This document shows positions 11,794 to 17,242 of a stretch of 33,091 nt of DNA, piece by piece. A program made the translations under genes and the position numbers. Each line of letters opens with the position of its first letter. Positions within the stretch are counted from its first letter, which is position 1. The notes below the pieces were generated by a model. That model worked only from the letters and a program-made list of their open reading frames with translations. It was not told the origin of the DNA and did no database searches. Origin of the DNA: Vulcanimicrobiota bacterium (GTDB lineage: Bacteria; Vulcanimicrobiota; Vulcanimicrobiia; Vulcanimicrobiales; Vulcanimicrobiaceae); NCBI GenBank assembly GCA_027364935.1, contig DAHXOK010000004.1:31356-64446 (forward strand), in the 5' to 3' direction.

Positions 11794-14733
11794 TTAGGTT
11801 TTAGCTTCACTATCTGACAGTGATGCTGCCGCGCTAGCTGGGTAAGCTAGGCTCCGAGTAGTAGCCCGTACGGCCGCGGCGATTTCCGTCAACACAGCGG
11901 TGCGCTCAGCGCTCGCCCCTCGGCCGAAAATCGCTTGGAAGGCATCTGGTCCCAGCGCGACGCGGAGGCGCTCCTCGAGTTCATCCCAGGAAGAGGCGGT
12001 AACCGGGTCCATCGGAGCACCGAGCCTCGATCGAATCGCTGACGCCGCCCCGGCGGCAAGGGCGGCTGTGTGGGCATCTTCCGCCTCGCCGCACGAATGC
12101 GCCACGTCTTCGAGGACGTCCGCGATGAGGCGGCACTCTTCGAGCCGCACCAGATGTTCTACCGCGTCGGCATGTCTGTCCAGCGCCTGGCGGAGATGTC
12201 CTTGCCGCCGAAAGATTGTCCCTTGAAGGTTGACTGCGTCGACGAGTCTGAGAACGTCGTGATGCGTCGCGCTTAGGGCGAGTGCCTGCTCTATGCGCTC
12301 GGATGCCGCACGCAAGTCACCGGCGTGGAACTCGACCAACGCAAGGTTCTTTAGCCCCACGCTCACGTTGTTCATGTCGCCGAGCGTTCGGAATACTTCG
12401 AGACAACGCGTTAGATGGATTCGAGCCTCCTCAAGGCGTCCGGTTGACAGACATAAGGCACCGAGAAAGTTCAGCGTCCGGCCGAGCGTGTTCCGATCGT
12501 CCAGATGTTCTTGCTCGCTCAGCACGTCGAGGAGCAAACGCTCCGCCTTCTCGAAATTGCCTGCCTCGATCTCCGCTGCGGCGACTGCAGCCCGCGCGTT
12601 GGAAGCAGCTCTGTGGTTCCCAATTGCTGCGAAGATATCGTGGGCACGCTCGTTGTATCGTCGCGCACGGCCCCACTCCGTGCAGGTGTTGGAAAGAATT
12701 CCGGCGGCGCGATAGCACAACGCGAGTTGCTCTGAAGGCGGCTGCGACGCTGCCGTCCGCTCCAGAAAACGTTCTGACAGACTGAGGTATTGTCGGCAAT
12801 TCGCATGCTGCGTCATGTACCGAGCCACGCCTGCGACGAGGCGCGCACCGATTTCAAAGTCGTCGCACTCGATGCACCACTCGAGGGCGGCGACGAAGTT
12901 GCTGAGATCGAGGCGTAAGGCGTTGATGCGTTCCTCGACTTCCGAGGCGTCGATCTTTCGGAGTGCTTCGGCAATCGTGGCAAAATGCCGAGCGTGAGCG
13001 CTCCGGACCGCATCCCACTCGCCGGACGCTTGTAAGTAACGGCTAGCGAAGGAGCGCGTGGTTACGAGAAGCGAGTAACGCGCGCTACTCGCGTCGTGAA
13101 TGGTGCCGACCAACGAGGCCTCGACCAATTCGGAAAGGGTGGCAACGACGTCGACCCGGCCATCGCCGCAAATCGCTTCTGCCGCCTCTATGTCAAACGA
13201 TGATGGAAAGACGGCGAGGCGCTCGAACAAGAGCCGCTCTTGGTCGGAGAGCAGTTCCACGCTCCACGCCAGCGCGTCGTTCAGGGTGGTATGGCGTGAA
13301 GGCGCAGCGCGATTGGAGAAGGCACGCGAGCGATCGTCGAGACGTTTGCGAATGCCTTCCATTGTTAACAAGTTTGCACGCGCCGCAATGAGCTCGATTG
13401 CGAGCGGCAACCCATCGAGGCGCCGTAGAACCTCTACGAGGGCATGAGCGTTTTCTTGGGTTATGCGGAACGACGGCGCCACGGTAACCGCACGTTCGAG
13501 AAGAAGCCTGGCGGCGGAATACTGCGCGATCTCGGCTGCACGATACGCTGCGAGCTCGGGAGGCACGGGTAAGGGCGCGACCGGAATCACGACCTCGGAC
13601 GCGCAAGAGAGGCGTTGGCGACTCGTTACCAGGACCTGCGCCGTGGTCTGGGTCAGCAGCTCGTCGACGAGCTCGCGCGCTTCTTCGCGCACGTGTTCGC
13701 AGTTGTCTAAGATCAGGAGACGTTTCGAATCGATCGTAGCGCCGGCCGATCTCGTCGTTTCCAGGACCTGCGCCGTTCGCGACCGCAACTCCGCGCGACT
13801 ACGCACCACGCTCGCGTCGACGAAGCAGACGCCGCCGGGATAGGTGCCGAGGTGATTCATCGCGCTGCGGCACGCCAAGCGAGTCTTGCCGACGCCCGCC
13901 GGCCCGGTCAGCGACACGACGCGGTAGGTTTTCAGGGCCTGTGCGATGGCGTCGAGCTCGGTCTCGCGCCCCACGAAGGAGGTGTGAAACGGGATGAGAT
14001 TGTGCGCGGCCGCGGCGGTTGCGTCATCGTAGAGAATGCGCCGGAATAACTCCGTCGTCGCCTGCTCGGGTTCGGTTTCGAGTTCGATGCGCAAACGTTG
14101 GACGAGTACGTTGTATTCGCGCAAGGCCCCGGCGCGATCGCCGGTTTGTGCGCGCACTTCCATCAGTGCGCGGATCGTGCGCTCGTCGAGCGGGTCCAAA
14201 GCGCAAAGGCGCTCCAAATACGCCGTACATGCTGTAACGTCGCCTTCGTCGCGGGACGCTTCGAAGAGCGTGCGCAGCATCGAGGCGTAGTGCCGAGCGA
14301 GCGCGGTCCGGCCTTCTTCCAATGCTTCATCGTGGACGCCCGCGCAAAGCTCGCCACCCCAAAGCGATACCGCGTTGCGGAGGTGTTGCGGATCGGACGA
14401 AGGTGCGAGAAAGGCGATAATATCGGCGTCCAGTACAGCGCGATTCCACTGCACGCCGTTTTTCGTCAGGATGAGCGCATTCGCGGGCAGCGCGTGCGCG
14501 AGCAGGTGGAGATGCCGGCGGAGGTTTGCACGCGCTTCTTCGTCGGTAACCTCGGGCCATAAGCGTTCGGCGAGCCGCGAACGCGGCTGCGGACGGTCGT
14601 GTTCGATTGCGAGCAGAGCTAGTAGGGCAAGGCCCTTTGTGGGGAGAGCGAGGCGTGAAAACCCCGCGCCGTCATGGAGAAGCGGTGTGCCGAAGAGCCG
14701 CAAACGCAGCGGCGCCGACGAAGGTGCCCCCAA
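11794..14733 (-). CDS. AfsR-like SARP transcriptional regulator (wHTH-BTAD-NB-ARC-TPR)
   Basis: A 979-residue regulator with the architecture of Streptomyces AfsR. Residues about 8-95 are an OmpR-type winged helix (LRLRLFGTPLLHDG, then RSRLAERLWPEVTDEEARANLRRHLHLL). About 100-245 is the BTAD helical domain (ALDPLDERTIRALMEVRAQTGDRAGALREYNVLVQRLRIEL). An NB-ARC-type ATPase follows with FVGRETELDAI, Walker A TGPAGVGKT near 277-284, Walker B LLILDNCEHV near 340 and GLPLAIEL. About 640-900 is a TPR array. TTG at 14733 is chosen because AAAGGA precedes it and the upstream in-frame extension to 14883 runs into the previous gene. SARPs bind heptamer direct repeats; matching sites lie at 16630-17242. 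It closes a same-strand gene series beginning with the lipoprotein gene. Confidence 0.9.
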   Translation of the reverse strand: MGAPSSAPLRLRLFGTPLLHDGAGFSRLALPTKGLALLALLAIEHDRPQPRSRLAERLWPEVTDEEARANLRRHLHLLAHALPANALILTKNGVQWNRAVLDADIIAFLAPSSDPQHLRNAVSLWGGELCAGVHDEALEEGRTALARHYASMLRTLFEASRDEGDVTACTAYLERLCALDPLDERTIRALMEVRAQTGDRAGALREYNVLVQRLRIELETEPEQATTELFRRILYDDATAAAAHNLIPFHTSFVGRETELDAIAQALKTYRVVSLTGPAGVGKTRLACRSAMNHLGTYPGGVCFVDASVVRSRAELRSRTAQVLETTRSAGATIDSKRLLILDNCEHVREEARELVDELLTQTTAQVLVTSRQRLSCASEVVIPVAPLPVPPELAAYRAAEIAQYSAARLLLERAVTVAPSFRITQENAHALVEVLRRLDGLPLAIELIAARANLLTMEGIRKRLDDRSRAFSNRAAPSRHTTLNDALAWSVELLSDQERLLFERLAVFPSSFDIEAAEAICGDGRVDVVATLSELVEASLVGTIHDASSARYSLLVTTRSFASRYLQASGEWDAVRSAHARHFATIAEALRKIDASEVEERINALRLDLSNFVAALEWCIECDDFEIGARLVAGVARYMTQHANCRQYLSLSERFLERTAASQPPSEQLALCYRAAGILSNTCTEWGRARRYNERAHDIFAAIGNHRAASNARAAVAAAEIEAGNFEKAERLLLDVLSEQEHLDDRNTLGRTLNFLGALCLSTGRLEEARIHLTRCLEVFRTLGDMNNVSVGLKNLALVEFHAGDLRAASERIEQALALSATHHDVLRLVDAVNLQGTIFRRQGHLRQALDRHADAVEHLVRLEECRLIADVLEDVAHSCGEAEDAHTAALAAGAASAIRSRLGAPMDPVTASSWDELEERLRVALGPDAFQAIFGRGASAERTAVLTEIAAAVRATTRSLAYPASAAASLSDSEAKT

Positions 14734-14822: not shown

Positions 14823-15461
14823 TTACGTCCAGTACACGGCGCTGGCACTTTTGTTGACGCGGCTGTTTATGCCGCCATAGCATTCTGTGACGAGTTGCTG
14901 CGCGAGATCGGCGTGTTCGTCTTCAAAGCGCTTCCACCGCTGGGCGCAGCCTGATGCAATGGCAGCGATCTCGGCTTGCTGCTCGGGTACCGGGCGCATT
15001 TTCGGTAGGCCCGTGAATGCCGTGCCGATACCGTCGCCCGCTGCTACCAGGAGCCCGGCAGCCGAGGCCTCTTTGAATGCGGTCTGCACGACCTGTTTCC
15101 ATGGGCTAGGCGAGGACTTGCCGAGACACGCATAAACGGCATCGCGCACGCTCTTGCCGTCGCGGACCGCGGCGAGCAGCGAGGCGCAGCCGCTCACCGG
15201 TGTCGTCTCACGCTTCTTCTGGATCAACGCCTGATTCTTCGTACCGAAGAGCGCTTTGCGATTCGTCAGGGTGATGTCGACGGCTCCGTCATCCAATAGA
15301 CAGAGAAACGCGTAGGCAAACATCTTCGCGCACACGTCGCTGAAGTTGACCTTTGCATCGGTAACGGGTGCGCGAATAGCGTTCATCGCGCCGCCCGGTT
15401 TTGCAATTTGATCCGCCGCTAAGAAGGCGGCTATAAATGGAGATATGGTTGTACCGGCCAT
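14823..15461 (-). CDS. Hypothetical protein, 212 residues
   Basis: I cannot assign a family. It begins MAGTTISPFIAAFLAADQIA, with mildly hydrophobic segments at 1-20 and 45-58 (AKMFAYAFLCLLDDGAVDI) but no clear signal peptide. It is alpha-helical, with six cysteines spread along the chain (C44, C54 and others in GCASLL, YACLG, SGCAQRW, ECYGG). The region LCLLDDGAVDITLTNRKALFG and later FKEASAAGLL recall phosphoinositide-binding GPP34-like proteins only faintly; I would not rely on that. ATG at 15461 has an AGGAG ribosome-binding site 8 bases upstream. It lies 17 bases after the solo LuxR-type HTH gene and 89 bases before the AfsR-like regulator, so co-transcription is likely. Confidence 0.7.
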   Translation of the reverse strand: MAGTTISPFIAAFLAADQIAKPGGAMNAIRAPVTDAKVNFSDVCAKMFAYAFLCLLDDGAVDITLTNRKALFGTKNQALIQKKRETTPVSGCASLLAAVRDGKSVRDAVYACLGKSSPSPWKQVVQTAFKEASAAGLLVAAGDGIGTAFTGLPKMRPVPEQQAEIAAIASGCAQRWKRFEDEHADLAQQLVTECYGGINSRVNKSASAVYWT

Positions 15462-15478: not shown

Positions 15479-15673
15479 TTAGCTTGGTCTGGGATCATCC
15501 GGCGCGATCGCTGCCAGGGCCGCGCGTGATTCGACGTCAAGTTTTGCAAAGATAACCTGTAGGCGATTTTCAACCGTGCGCAAGCTCACCCCCAAAGCGA
15601 CCGCAATGTCGAGGTTCGACTTGCCGTCGGCAACCATGCGTGCCAACTCGCGTTCGGCGTGGGTAAGGTCCAC
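15479..15673 (-). CDS. Solo LuxR-type helix-turn-helix protein, 64 residues
   Basis: A single GerE/LuxR-type DNA-binding domain with no sensor or receiver. The sequence follows the family throughout: LTHAERELARMVADGKSNLDIAVALGVSLRTVENRLQVIFAKLDVESRAALAAI, i.e. L-T-x2-E, S-N-x2-I-A, S-x-R-T-V-E-N and K-L-x-V-x-S-R-A. The usual His after V-E is Asn-Arg here. The GTG start sits 9 bases after the stop of the lipoprotein gene and lacks its own strong ribosome-binding site, so it is probably coupled. Stand-alone domains of this size resemble GerE of Bacillus. Its partner and target are unknown; the 212-residue protein downstream could modulate it. Confidence 0.85.
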   Translation of the reverse strand: MDLTHAERELARMVADGKSNLDIAVALGVSLRTVENRLQVIFAKLDVESRAALAAIAPDDPRPS

Positions 15674-15682
15674 GACGCACGG

Positions 15683-16585
15683 TTAGAAGTAGGTGAGACC
15701 AAACGCGCCGTTCAAACCGTTCGTTATCGATTTGGTGGGTGTGCTGGTCTTCGAGAACGGCGGCGCGAACTCGTCGATCTTGTCGTGGCCCTGTTCGGTG
15801 ACGTAGAGGTTGCCCCGAGTATCGACGGTCAGTCCTAGTGGTGCCGTCGTCGTGAAGGTCACACTCGGCACGTTGCCGGCCAGCGGCAGATTATAGACGA
15901 GGATCGTGTTGTTTCTCGTATCGGCGACGAGAAGTTGGGAGCCTGAGACGGCAAGTCCATGCAATCCGGGGTTCGTGTCGGGAACGGTAATCGAGGTGCC
16001 CAAGGTCGTATACGGCGGTGCGTACATCACGACCGTCCCGCTGCTATCGGCATTGGAGATGAACATGTCGCCGCCGGAGTCGAAGGCGATTCCGTACGAG
16101 TCGGTGACGCCGTTGGTCAGGCCGTTCGACTCGGTGGTGCTGTTGGTGAACGGCGGCACGTACTCGACGACGACGGCGTTTTGCGAAGTTGCCCAAAGAT
16201 TGCCGTTGGGATCGAAGGCCATGAAGCCGGCCGCCGAAGTTCCAAAAGTCGCGACCGGCACGCTCGTGTTGGTCAATGGCCAGGAAAACGCAGTAACGCT
16301 GCCCGTGATTCGATCGGTCACGACGTACTTGCTGTTTGCGGCGATGCCGACAGGCGCCGCGTCGGTAGTCACAATTCCCGCCGTCGGACTGCTCAAATCC
16401 GTGTCGTATGCGGTCACGTCGTTTCCGGAATAGTTCGCGACGAATAAGCGGCAGAAGAGCGGCTCGGGCGGACACACGTGGCCGAGCGCCGCACTGGTGG
16501 TTATGGGGCCTTTGCAAGCGCCGAGCGCGACGAGGCCCGTTGCCGCCATGGCGCAGAGTGTAGCGATACGAAGGTTGAGTTTCAT
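15683..16585 (-). CDS. NHL-like beta-propeller lipoprotein, 300 residues
   Basis: An exported lipoprotein with a beta-propeller. The signal peptide ends in the lipobox LGAC with lipidated Cys24 (VALGACKG). The rest repeats a motif of about 40-45 residues of the NHL/SMP-30 type: FVANYSGNDVTAYDTDL, GFMAFDPNGNLWATSQNAVVVEYVPP, YGIAFDSGGDMFISNADSSGTVVMYAPP, GLAVSGSQLLVADTRNNTILVYNLP and GLTVDTRGNLYVTEQGHDKIDEFAPP. Such propellers bind ligands or other proteins at the cell surface. I chose ATG 16585 because AAGGGA precedes it and the longer frame to 16687 would translate the promoter. The promoter carries the TCGGACG direct repeat. It heads the series leading to the LuxR-type and AfsR-like genes. 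Confidence 0.87.
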   Translation of the reverse strand: MKLNLRIATLCAMAATGLVALGACKGPITTSAALGHVCPPEPLFCRLFVANYSGNDVTAYDTDLSSPTAGIVTTDAAPVGIAANSKYVVTDRITGSVTAFSWPLTNTSVPVATFGTSAAGFMAFDPNGNLWATSQNAVVVEYVPPFTNSTTESNGLTNGVTDSYGIAFDSGGDMFISNADSSGTVVMYAPPYTTLGTSITVPDTNPGLHGLAVSGSQLLVADTRNNTILVYNLPLAGNVPSVTFTTTAPLGLTVDTRGNLYVTEQGHDKIDEFAPPFSKTSTPTKSITNGLNGAFGLTYF

Positions 16586-16613: not shown

Positions 16614-16647
16614 ATCCTACGGAACCAGGCGTCCGATTTTCGTCCGA
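16614..16647 (-). promoter_or_regulatory. SARP-like promoter copy 1 (lipoprotein gene)
   Basis: Minus strand: TCGGACG (16647-16641), AAAA, TCGGACG (16636-16630), 10 bases, then TAGGAT (16619-16614) as -10. There is no consensus -35; the heptamer pair takes its place. The start codon at 16585 follows after a short leader with AAGGGA. Upstream (16649-16676) sequence is also shared with copy 2, so the copies arose by duplication. Confidence 0.72.
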
Positions 16648-16676
16648 TGTCCCAGCGCGACGGGCCTGCCTGCGAG

Positions 16677-16733
16677 TCAAGCCCCAAATCTACCGCAATT
16701 TCGGTTCATCGTACGTTGAAGGTAGAGTTTCAT
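16677..16733 (-). pseudogene. 18-codon relic ORF behind an intact promoter copy
   Basis: ATG at 16733 opens MKLYLQRTMNRNCGRFGA and stops at TGA 16677. The upstream sequence matches the leader and promoter of the lipoprotein gene, including GAGGG ahead of the ATG, and the first codons (MKL) match those of the lipoprotein, but no signal peptide or domain follows. I read it as the stump of a third gene of this exported family; a genuine mini-peptide or small RNA is the alternative. Confidence 0.45.
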
Positions 16734-16764
16734 CGGTAAGAGTCCCTCGCGGAAAGTTGAGACC

Positions 16765-16798
16765 ATCCTATGAAATGAGGCGTCCGATCTTCGTCCGG
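16765..16798 (-). promoter_or_regulatory. SARP-like promoter copy 3 (in front of the relic ORF)
   Basis: Minus strand: CCGGACG (16798-16792), AAGA, TCGGACG (16787-16781), 10 bases, then TAGGAT (16770-16765). One base of the distal heptamer and one of the spacer differ from copies 1 and 2. The repeat begins one base after the stop codon of the secreted-protein gene. Confidence 0.68.
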
Positions 16799-16799
16799 C

Positions 16800-17180
16800 T
16801 CATTGTCTGCTGTTGCGCCCGCACTTGAAGGTTACGTCGAAGCCGCGCTTTTCGAACGGCCCCGAATCGGTCTTGGACTTCAGATAGAGCGCACCGCCCT
16901 TGTAGAGCCCCAGAAAGTCGTCGTCACCGCCGCTAAGGAAATGCACGATGTTGTGTGAGTCGATCGAATAGCGTCCGGGCGCGTACGGCTTGCGAGCATC
17001 GCCGAGGGCGTACGTTCCATCGGGATGGAACAGGATGTTTTGAAACCAGTTGACTTGCGCGCCGTACGCCAGACAGGTCCACTGCCCGGAGAGTGCCGGC
17101 GCGGCGGCTACGGGCGCCTTGGCGAAGAGGCCCGAGGCCGCGATCCCGAGCAGCACCGCGAGACGGAAGTAGGATTTCAT
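16800..17180 (-). CDS. Small secreted protein, 126 residues
   Basis: Function unknown. A signal peptide covers residues 1-27 (MKSYFRLAVLLGIAASGLFA then KAPVAAA, cleavage after AAA). The mature part is a compact beta-rich domain of about 100 residues: SGQWTCLAYG, NILFHPDGTYALGD, PGRYSIDSHNIVHFLSGGDDDFLGLYKGGALYLKSK and FDVTFKCG. Two cysteines, one near each end (WTC and FKC), could form a disulfide that ties the first and last strands, a lipocalin-like or small-barrel arrangement. ATG 17180 has AAGGA about 8 bases upstream. It is driven by promoter copy 2 and is probably a target of the AfsR-like regulator. Confidence 0.82.
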   Translation of the reverse strand: MKSYFRLAVLLGIAASGLFAKAPVAAAPALSGQWTCLAYGAQVNWFQNILFHPDGTYALGDARKPYAPGRYSIDSHNIVHFLSGGDDDFLGLYKGGALYLKSKTDSGPFEKRGFDVTFKCGRNSRQ

Positions 17181-17209
17181 GTTGGGTGTCCTTGTGGAGA
17201 GATGGCATC

Positions 17210-17242
17210 ATGCTAGCGGGCGGACGTCCGATTTTCGTCCGA
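17210..17242 (-). promoter_or_regulatory. SARP-like promoter copy 2 (secreted-protein gene)
   Basis: Minus strand: TCGGACG (17242-17236), AAAA, TCGGACG (17231-17225), 9 bases, then TAGCAT (17215-17210). The 18-base repeat block is identical to copy 1. The CCCAGCGCGA-GG-CCTGCC block next to it is also shared with copy 1. Confidence 0.72.

Follow-up and report, generated by a model that had tools for sequence, protein, structure and literature searches.

Which regulator, if any, reads the three copies of a heptamer direct repeat that precede exported-protein genes in this stretch of DNA, a short distance from a gene for a large AfsR-like SARP? We addressed this question computationally, starting from the window (the whole stretch analyzed, 33,091 nucleotides) and extending the comparison to related genomes, which are labeled here by G numbers, with this genome as G000.

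Repeat Boxes and Gene Order in the Window

Direct reading of the window sequence confirmed that TCGGACG-AAAA-TCGGACG occurs twice exactly and once in a changed copy, that each repeat is followed by a TAGCAT or TAGGAT element at 9–10 bp (gaps of 9, 10, and 10 bp), and that the repeats precede the starts of exported-protein genes or a relic of one (ATG 17180, 16733, and 16585), all as claimed in the preliminary description. The features, all on the minus strand, are as follows.

17225–17242, minus: putative SARP box 1, TCGGACG-AAAA-TCGGACG, exact (sequence read directly)
17210–17215, minus: −10 element TAGCAT, 9 bp past box 1; no −35
16800–17180, minus: 126-aa exported protein, ATG 17180; signal peptide; no Pfam family
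16781–16798, minus: putative SARP box 2, CCGGACG-AAGA-TCGGACG, C in place of T at position 1 (sequence read directly)
16765–16770, minus: −10 element TAGGAT, 10 bp past box 2
16677–16733, minus: relic start of an exported-protein gene, ATG 16733; 18 codons, MKLYLQRTMNRNCGRFGA, then stop
16630–16647, minus: putative SARP box 3, TCGGACG-AAAA-TCGGACG, exact (sequence read directly)
16614–16619, minus: −10 element TAGGAT, 10 bp past box 3
15683–16585, minus: 300-aa NHL-type β-propeller lipoprotein, ATG 16585; lipobox LGAC
15479–15673, minus: stand-alone 64-aa LuxR/GerE helix-turn-helix (HTH) protein, Pfam GerE 9.7e-13; GTG start
14823–15461, minus: 212-aa protein of no known family, between the HTH gene and the SARP gene
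11794–14733, minus: AfsR-like large SARP, winged HTH–BTAD–NOD ATPase–TPR
14488–14538, minus: SARP recognition helix EARANLRRHLHLLAHAL, located by AfsR alignment

On the minus strand the genes run in the order 126-aa exported protein, relic, β-propeller lipoprotein, GerE HTH, 212-aa orphan, and SARP, and the GTG start of the GerE gene lies 9 bases past the propeller stop codon. Orthologs of the 126-aa protein are present in G084, G050–G052, and G034, with a frame-broken one in G080. Box 1 is kept in the orthologous promoters of G084 and G080 and, with C at position 1, of G050–G052; the T-to-C change at position 1 of box 2 recurs in G050–G052 and G079. At the position of the relic, G084 carries a second propeller gene that is complete (locus L125, 7909–8817; 62% identity to the window propeller), and relatives of the window β-propeller are found in many SARP neighborhoods. 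GerE orthologs precede the SARP gene in G084 and G050–G052, and G034 has a similar one. The 212-aa protein was seen between the GerE and SARP genes only in this genome; the two genes are adjacent in G084.

Domains of the Regulator

The SARP probably starts at the TTG at 14733, the longest open reading frame (ORF) beginning at 14883. Its BTAD domain (PF03704, 3.9e-22, 79.6 bits, cut-off 22.1) directly follows the winged HTH, which matches Trans_reg_C at residues 78–143 with 5.7e-4, under the curated cut-off; the DNA-binding domain is co-linear with AfsR 8hvr (match 59–288, 9.2e-8). The C-terminal part contains TPR_12 (6.7e-19), a Walker A motif (GPAGVGKT), and an AAA_16 match just under its cut-off (9e-7). 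An AlphaFold2 model of the DNA-binding half, made from the single sequence with no alignment, had a mean pLDDT of 41. As judged from sequence, the N-terminal winged HTH, BTAD, NOD-TPR, and operator layout meet the criteria for a large, AfsR-like SARP, the operator itself showing 11-bp heptamer repeats, 9 or 10 bp to the −10, and a poor −35.

Distribution of the Box in This Genome

The 2.24-Mb genome contains three copies of the exact repeat and no match to the reversed pattern. The third copy (contig C79, 2615) is unlinked to the SARP and is followed by TAGGAT at 10 bp and then by a lipoprotein gene; all three exact copies lie 9–10 bp from a −10 element and upstream of signal-peptide genes. 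Scanning the window with up to three mismatches gave no enrichment (11 matches versus 16 expected), and approximate matches with two or three mismatches were uninformative in window or genome, the excess being none or about two-fold. With only four known sites in this 86%-complete MAG, the regulon is small in this genome. On contig C92, a second SARP of this genome (L132, 11619; helix NLSY) is accompanied by a GGAACG-type box upstream of a lipoprotein gene.

The promoters of this genome, including those at 16798–16781 and C79:2615, are alike beyond the box, sharing 5′ UTR and signal-peptide starts; judged by this likeness, they arose in part by duplication and cannot be treated as independent, which makes them weak evidence when taken alone. 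The same likeness would be expected if the repeats were merely duplicated promoter/signal-peptide cassettes, similar by common descent only and without a dedicated regulator. Such an origin would also fit a transposase-like ORF (L001, 984–1472), in which an IS3-like DDE motif was recognized by eye; it lies immediately upstream of the C79 box and is possibly the vehicle that spread this promoter copy. Across genera, however, all but the boxes and TA...T have diverged, and at unrelated SARPs repeats of the same 11-bp period are again found, built from other heptamers. We consider it very unlikely that duplication alone accounts for the repeats, and operators of a dedicated SARP remain the preferred reading.

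Co-occurrence of the Box and the SARP across the Family

We scanned 99 genomes of the family for YCGGACG-N4-TCGGACG-N8–11-TANNNT, using the reversed pattern as a control. A scan of this kind, over the whole genome, had been put forward as a check in the preliminary description, and its outcome was favorable: the box with its −10 is enriched in the family, with 32 sites in 15 of the 99 genomes versus no control match, and 23 of these sites share a contig with a SARP gene. Close orthologs of the SARP DNA-binding half are found in 8 of the 99 genomes (G000, G084, G050–G052, G079, G034, and G067). The box is present in 7 of these 8 versus 8 of the 91 others (Fisher p = 3e-6, a value that ignores the relatedness of the genomes); in the eighth, G034, a contig end cuts the gene series.

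Boxes adjoin the SARP ortholog in G050, G051, G052, G067, G079, and G084, and further boxes are unlinked to it (G051 C33, G050 C46, G052 C55, G067 C89, and G000 C79). G050–G052 each carry one box directly upstream of the HTH-SARP genes and another before a lipoprotein gene behind the SARP. When 12 promoters from five genera are aligned, the two CGGACG units and TA...T are nearly the sole invariant columns. Seven of the remaining eight positive genomes, which have no close ortholog, contain other SARPs, mostly on the contig with the box and, where the helix is readable, mostly with a hydrophobic helix residue.

G080, a 96%-complete genome of the same genus as this MAG, retains an intact box without a detectable SARP ortholog. 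On its contig C121 (L047, L048) a frame break interrupts the gene for the 126-aa target while the box is intact, an apparent case of target decay following regulator loss. The propeller promoters of G084 have degenerate boxes. One-mismatch matches in G078 and G081–G083 were rejected, as they lack such a −10 and lie inside or beside ordinary genes, and the sole other match outside the group, in Microcoleus (L039), was taken as chance, with no exported gene behind it.

Enrichment of 11-bp-Period Repeats around SARP Genes

For a test that assumes no motif, 56 SARP neighborhoods (0.84 Mb) were picked by protein homology alone and compared with 40 control stretches from the same genomes (0.72 Mb), counting exact 7-mer direct repeats followed by N8–11-TANNNT. 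Repeats with a gap of 4, that is, an 11-bp period, and a −10 numbered 27 at SARP neighborhoods versus 3 in controls, and one of those three is a CTGGACG-like box upstream of a lipoprotein gene. Because codon periodicity inflates gaps of 2, 5, 8, 11, and 14, the fair comparison is with gaps of 3, 6, and 7, which gave 3, 2, and 3 repeats at the SARP neighborhoods. The distance of the de novo repeats to the −10 peaks at 8–10 bp.

Relaxed NNNRACG pairs (up to two mismatches) occurred 42 times at SARP loci versus 3 times in controls. Over 73 sites, selected by a pattern that itself requires ACG, heptamer position 1 is nearly free and the gap to the −10 is 9 bp in 50 and 10 bp in 23; the best TTGACA match found in a search for a −35 at these 73 sites was 3/6 or less throughout. 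SARPs with an LRR helix had 32 sites in 0.86 Mb, and those with the changed helix LR-x-T had none in 0.24 Mb.

Genes behind the Boxes

The claim that the box sits before exported-protein genes also holds for most boxes in the wider set. A crude signal-peptide rule classes 39 of the 64 genes that follow boxes (61%) as encoding exported products, versus 124 of 541 background ORFs (23%; p = 2e-9). Recurrent nonexported targets are a 62–78-aa FLVRMW protein, DUF1059 proteins, and a methyltransferase-like protein (two loci, by eye). The 62–78-aa protein, which has no Pfam family and the pattern F.VR.W...W.g.v.hv.s..r.ff......fi, lies directly behind SARP boxes of different words (L166 7139, L169 5389, L174 6220, L179 11261, L207 11805, L211 9268, L215 5945, L265 7804, and L277) and is possibly a conserved partner of these SARPs. 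TGAGACG boxes were found upstream of DUF1059-type small proteins at L170 562, L176 4214, and L205 7792, in three genomes of one genus.

Covariation of the Recognition Helix and the Heptamer

In AfsR, residues T88 and R92 of helix α3 contact bases, R92 contacting T(−38) (PMC10936776). The helix of the window SARP aligns with that of AfsR without gaps, and the R92 equivalent is a Leu (14505–14503, LRRHLH-L), the helix variant found with CGGACG boxes. The heptamers vary among SARPs (TAGACG, TGGACG, GGGACG, GGCACG, and others). We assigned heptamers to SARPs by proximity, partly by hand, and excluded a few ambiguous loci. Among the 37 SARPs to which a box was assigned, heptamer positions 2–3 and the R92-equivalent residue share 1.26 bits of mutual information, versus a maximum of 0.81 bits in 5000 permutations. 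An equivalent L or V goes with CG in 13 of 16 SARPs, Y with TA or GA in 9 of 11, R with TG in 4 of 6, and H with GG in 3 of 3; ELRRYLYL-type SARPs have GGCACG boxes. The correspondences of helix and word are as follows.

NLRR..L: CGGACG
NLRRHLHY: TAGACG
NLRRHLNY: GAGACG
NLRRHL[HY]R: TGGACG
NLRRHLHH: GGGACG
ELRRYLYL: GGCACG

When the helix is left out in building the SARP tree, the heptamer changes 10 times on it, versus 20.8 when shuffled. CG boxes appear in more than one part of this tree, although the starred branches do not force separate origins, and an independent-pairs test of the helix/operator link that controls for phylogeny was underpowered, with only two supported pairs. A prediction rule fixed beforehand and applied to 20 held-out loci gave three of four words and nine of nine no-site predictions correctly. 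The miss (L273), an NLSY SARP with CGGAACG, agrees with the other SARP of NLSY type, which this genome carries on contig C92. R-type SARPs have T at heptamer position 2 in 4 of 6 cases. By analogy with AfsR, we infer that position 2, at a 9-bp gap, would fall near −38 and match the R92 contact within one base. We lean toward the view that AfsR-like activators have multiplied in this family, that they serve mainly exported proteins, and that each recognizes a distinct operator word, which can be deduced from its helix.

These data bear on two other candidate readers. The stand-alone LuxR/GerE protein (15673–15479) is co-encoded with the SARP, and the box of G050–G052 lies directly before the GerE start codon. 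GerE proteins usually bind dyads, a criterion that is not met here, as the conserved half-sites are nonpalindromic and repeated in the same orientation. Moreover, the heptamer sequence follows the SARP helix, and tblastn finds no HTH homolog in the sequenced SARP-and-box neighborhoods of G079, G067, G025, G029, G058, and others; this search covers limited stretches and does not exclude a GerE protein elsewhere in those genomes. With no such HTH found in the sequenced neighborhoods of box-carrying SARPs in other genera, binding by the LuxR-type protein instead, which the preliminary description had named as a refutation, has little to recommend it. Response regulators of the OmpR type likewise recognize direct repeats, with a period of about 11 bp. 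Recognition by an alternative sigma factor, or by an OmpR/PhoB-type regulator other than the SARP, whose sites would lie near SARP genes only by coincidence, is more improbable still: PhoP and AfsR do share the afsS site (PMC10972967), but the heptamer changes with SARP lineage (the 10 versus 20.8 changes above), and no such heptamer is found near SARP types whose helix differs.

Proposed Mechanism

The repeats are very probably operators of the AfsR-like SARP at 14733–11794, which would activate exported-protein genes, although no binding or expression data are available. Recognition of the TCGGACG repeats by the neighboring SARP, as first proposed, is supported in silico by co-occurrence (unlinked sites included), footprint, 11-bp enrichment, helix covariation, and the excess of signal peptides. 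Box, spacing, conservation, lineage co-occurrence, and helix/operator correlation are established by computation, that is, at the level of sequence.

By analogy with AfsR, we infer that two SARP protomers would sit side by side on the two heptamers, 11 bp apart, the second heptamer ending 9–10 bp upstream of a weak −10. The bound SARPs would replace the missing −35 contact by docking sigma region 4, a sigma adaptation like that of AfsR (PMC10936776). The window SARP is inferred to activate the genes for the 126-aa protein, the β-propeller lipoprotein, and the unlinked C79 lipoprotein, and read-through from box 3 would probably activate the HTH-SARP genes too. The suggestion of positive feedback stands only in part: no box precedes the HTH-SARP genes of the window, where read-through from 16647–16630 would be needed, whereas in genus g21 a box lies directly before the operon and feedback looks direct.

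Discussion

Reviews describe SARPs as exclusive to actinobacteria (PMC10972967, PMC7040171), and our searches of the literature turned up no relevant work on SARP or BTAD in Eremiobacterota. The mechanism is of a known kind. As far as we searched, what is new is its occurrence in this phylum, the targeting of exported proteins, the GerE gene that accompanies the SARP gene, and a set of helix/word pairs that can be read. Although binding data are absent, SARP control of the type known from Streptomyces most likely operates in a second phylum as well and has diversified there. Reviews tie SARPs to antibiotic clusters, and finding the same operator architecture associated, in one genome after another, with AfsR-like proteins of this phylum and with secreted proteins alters the presumed role of SARPs.

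Because differing SARP/operator pairs sit side by side in related genomes, specificity residues become directly testable and the pairs are candidate orthogonal activator/promoter pairs. We found no SARP recognition code in the Streptomyces literature searched; if the helix/word correspondence is true, natural genomes supply one. The analysis also yields regulon predictions for Candidatus Eremiobacterota, a phylum from which a cultivated member was first reported as late as 2022 (PMC9758169).

The closest known system is AfsR and its afs box at afsS in Streptomyces coelicolor (8HVR, 8JKE, 8K60; PMC10936776). It has the same wHTH-BTAD-NOD-TPR architecture, two 11-bp-period direct repeats about 8 bp before a weak −10 without a usable −35, and helix positions that align without gaps. 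The heptamer words differ (NNNRACG here versus CGTT(T/C)ATCG for AfsR), as do R92 (Leu in the window SARP), the targets (exported proteins versus afsS), and the phylum, and a small GerE protein is co-encoded here. The operators of PimR, SanG, and PolR (PMC3367932) have CGGCAAG heptamers with 4-bp spacers, the same spacing as here, and CGGCAAG is close to the CGGCACG boxes beside ELRRYLYL-type SARPs; their targets, unlike those here, are antibiotic clusters, and the PimR site lies clear of the −35 region, the boxes here lying 9–10 bp from the −10. ActII-ORF4 and DnrI also use heptamer direct repeats near the −35 region (PMC10972967) but are small SARPs without NOD-TPR, specific to antibiotic pathways, and with other heptamers. 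Unlike the described Streptomyces SARP regulons, which target antibiotic biosynthesis, the system described here belongs to Candidatus Eremiobacterota, not Actinobacteria, and its predicted targets are mostly exported proteins and lipoproteins.
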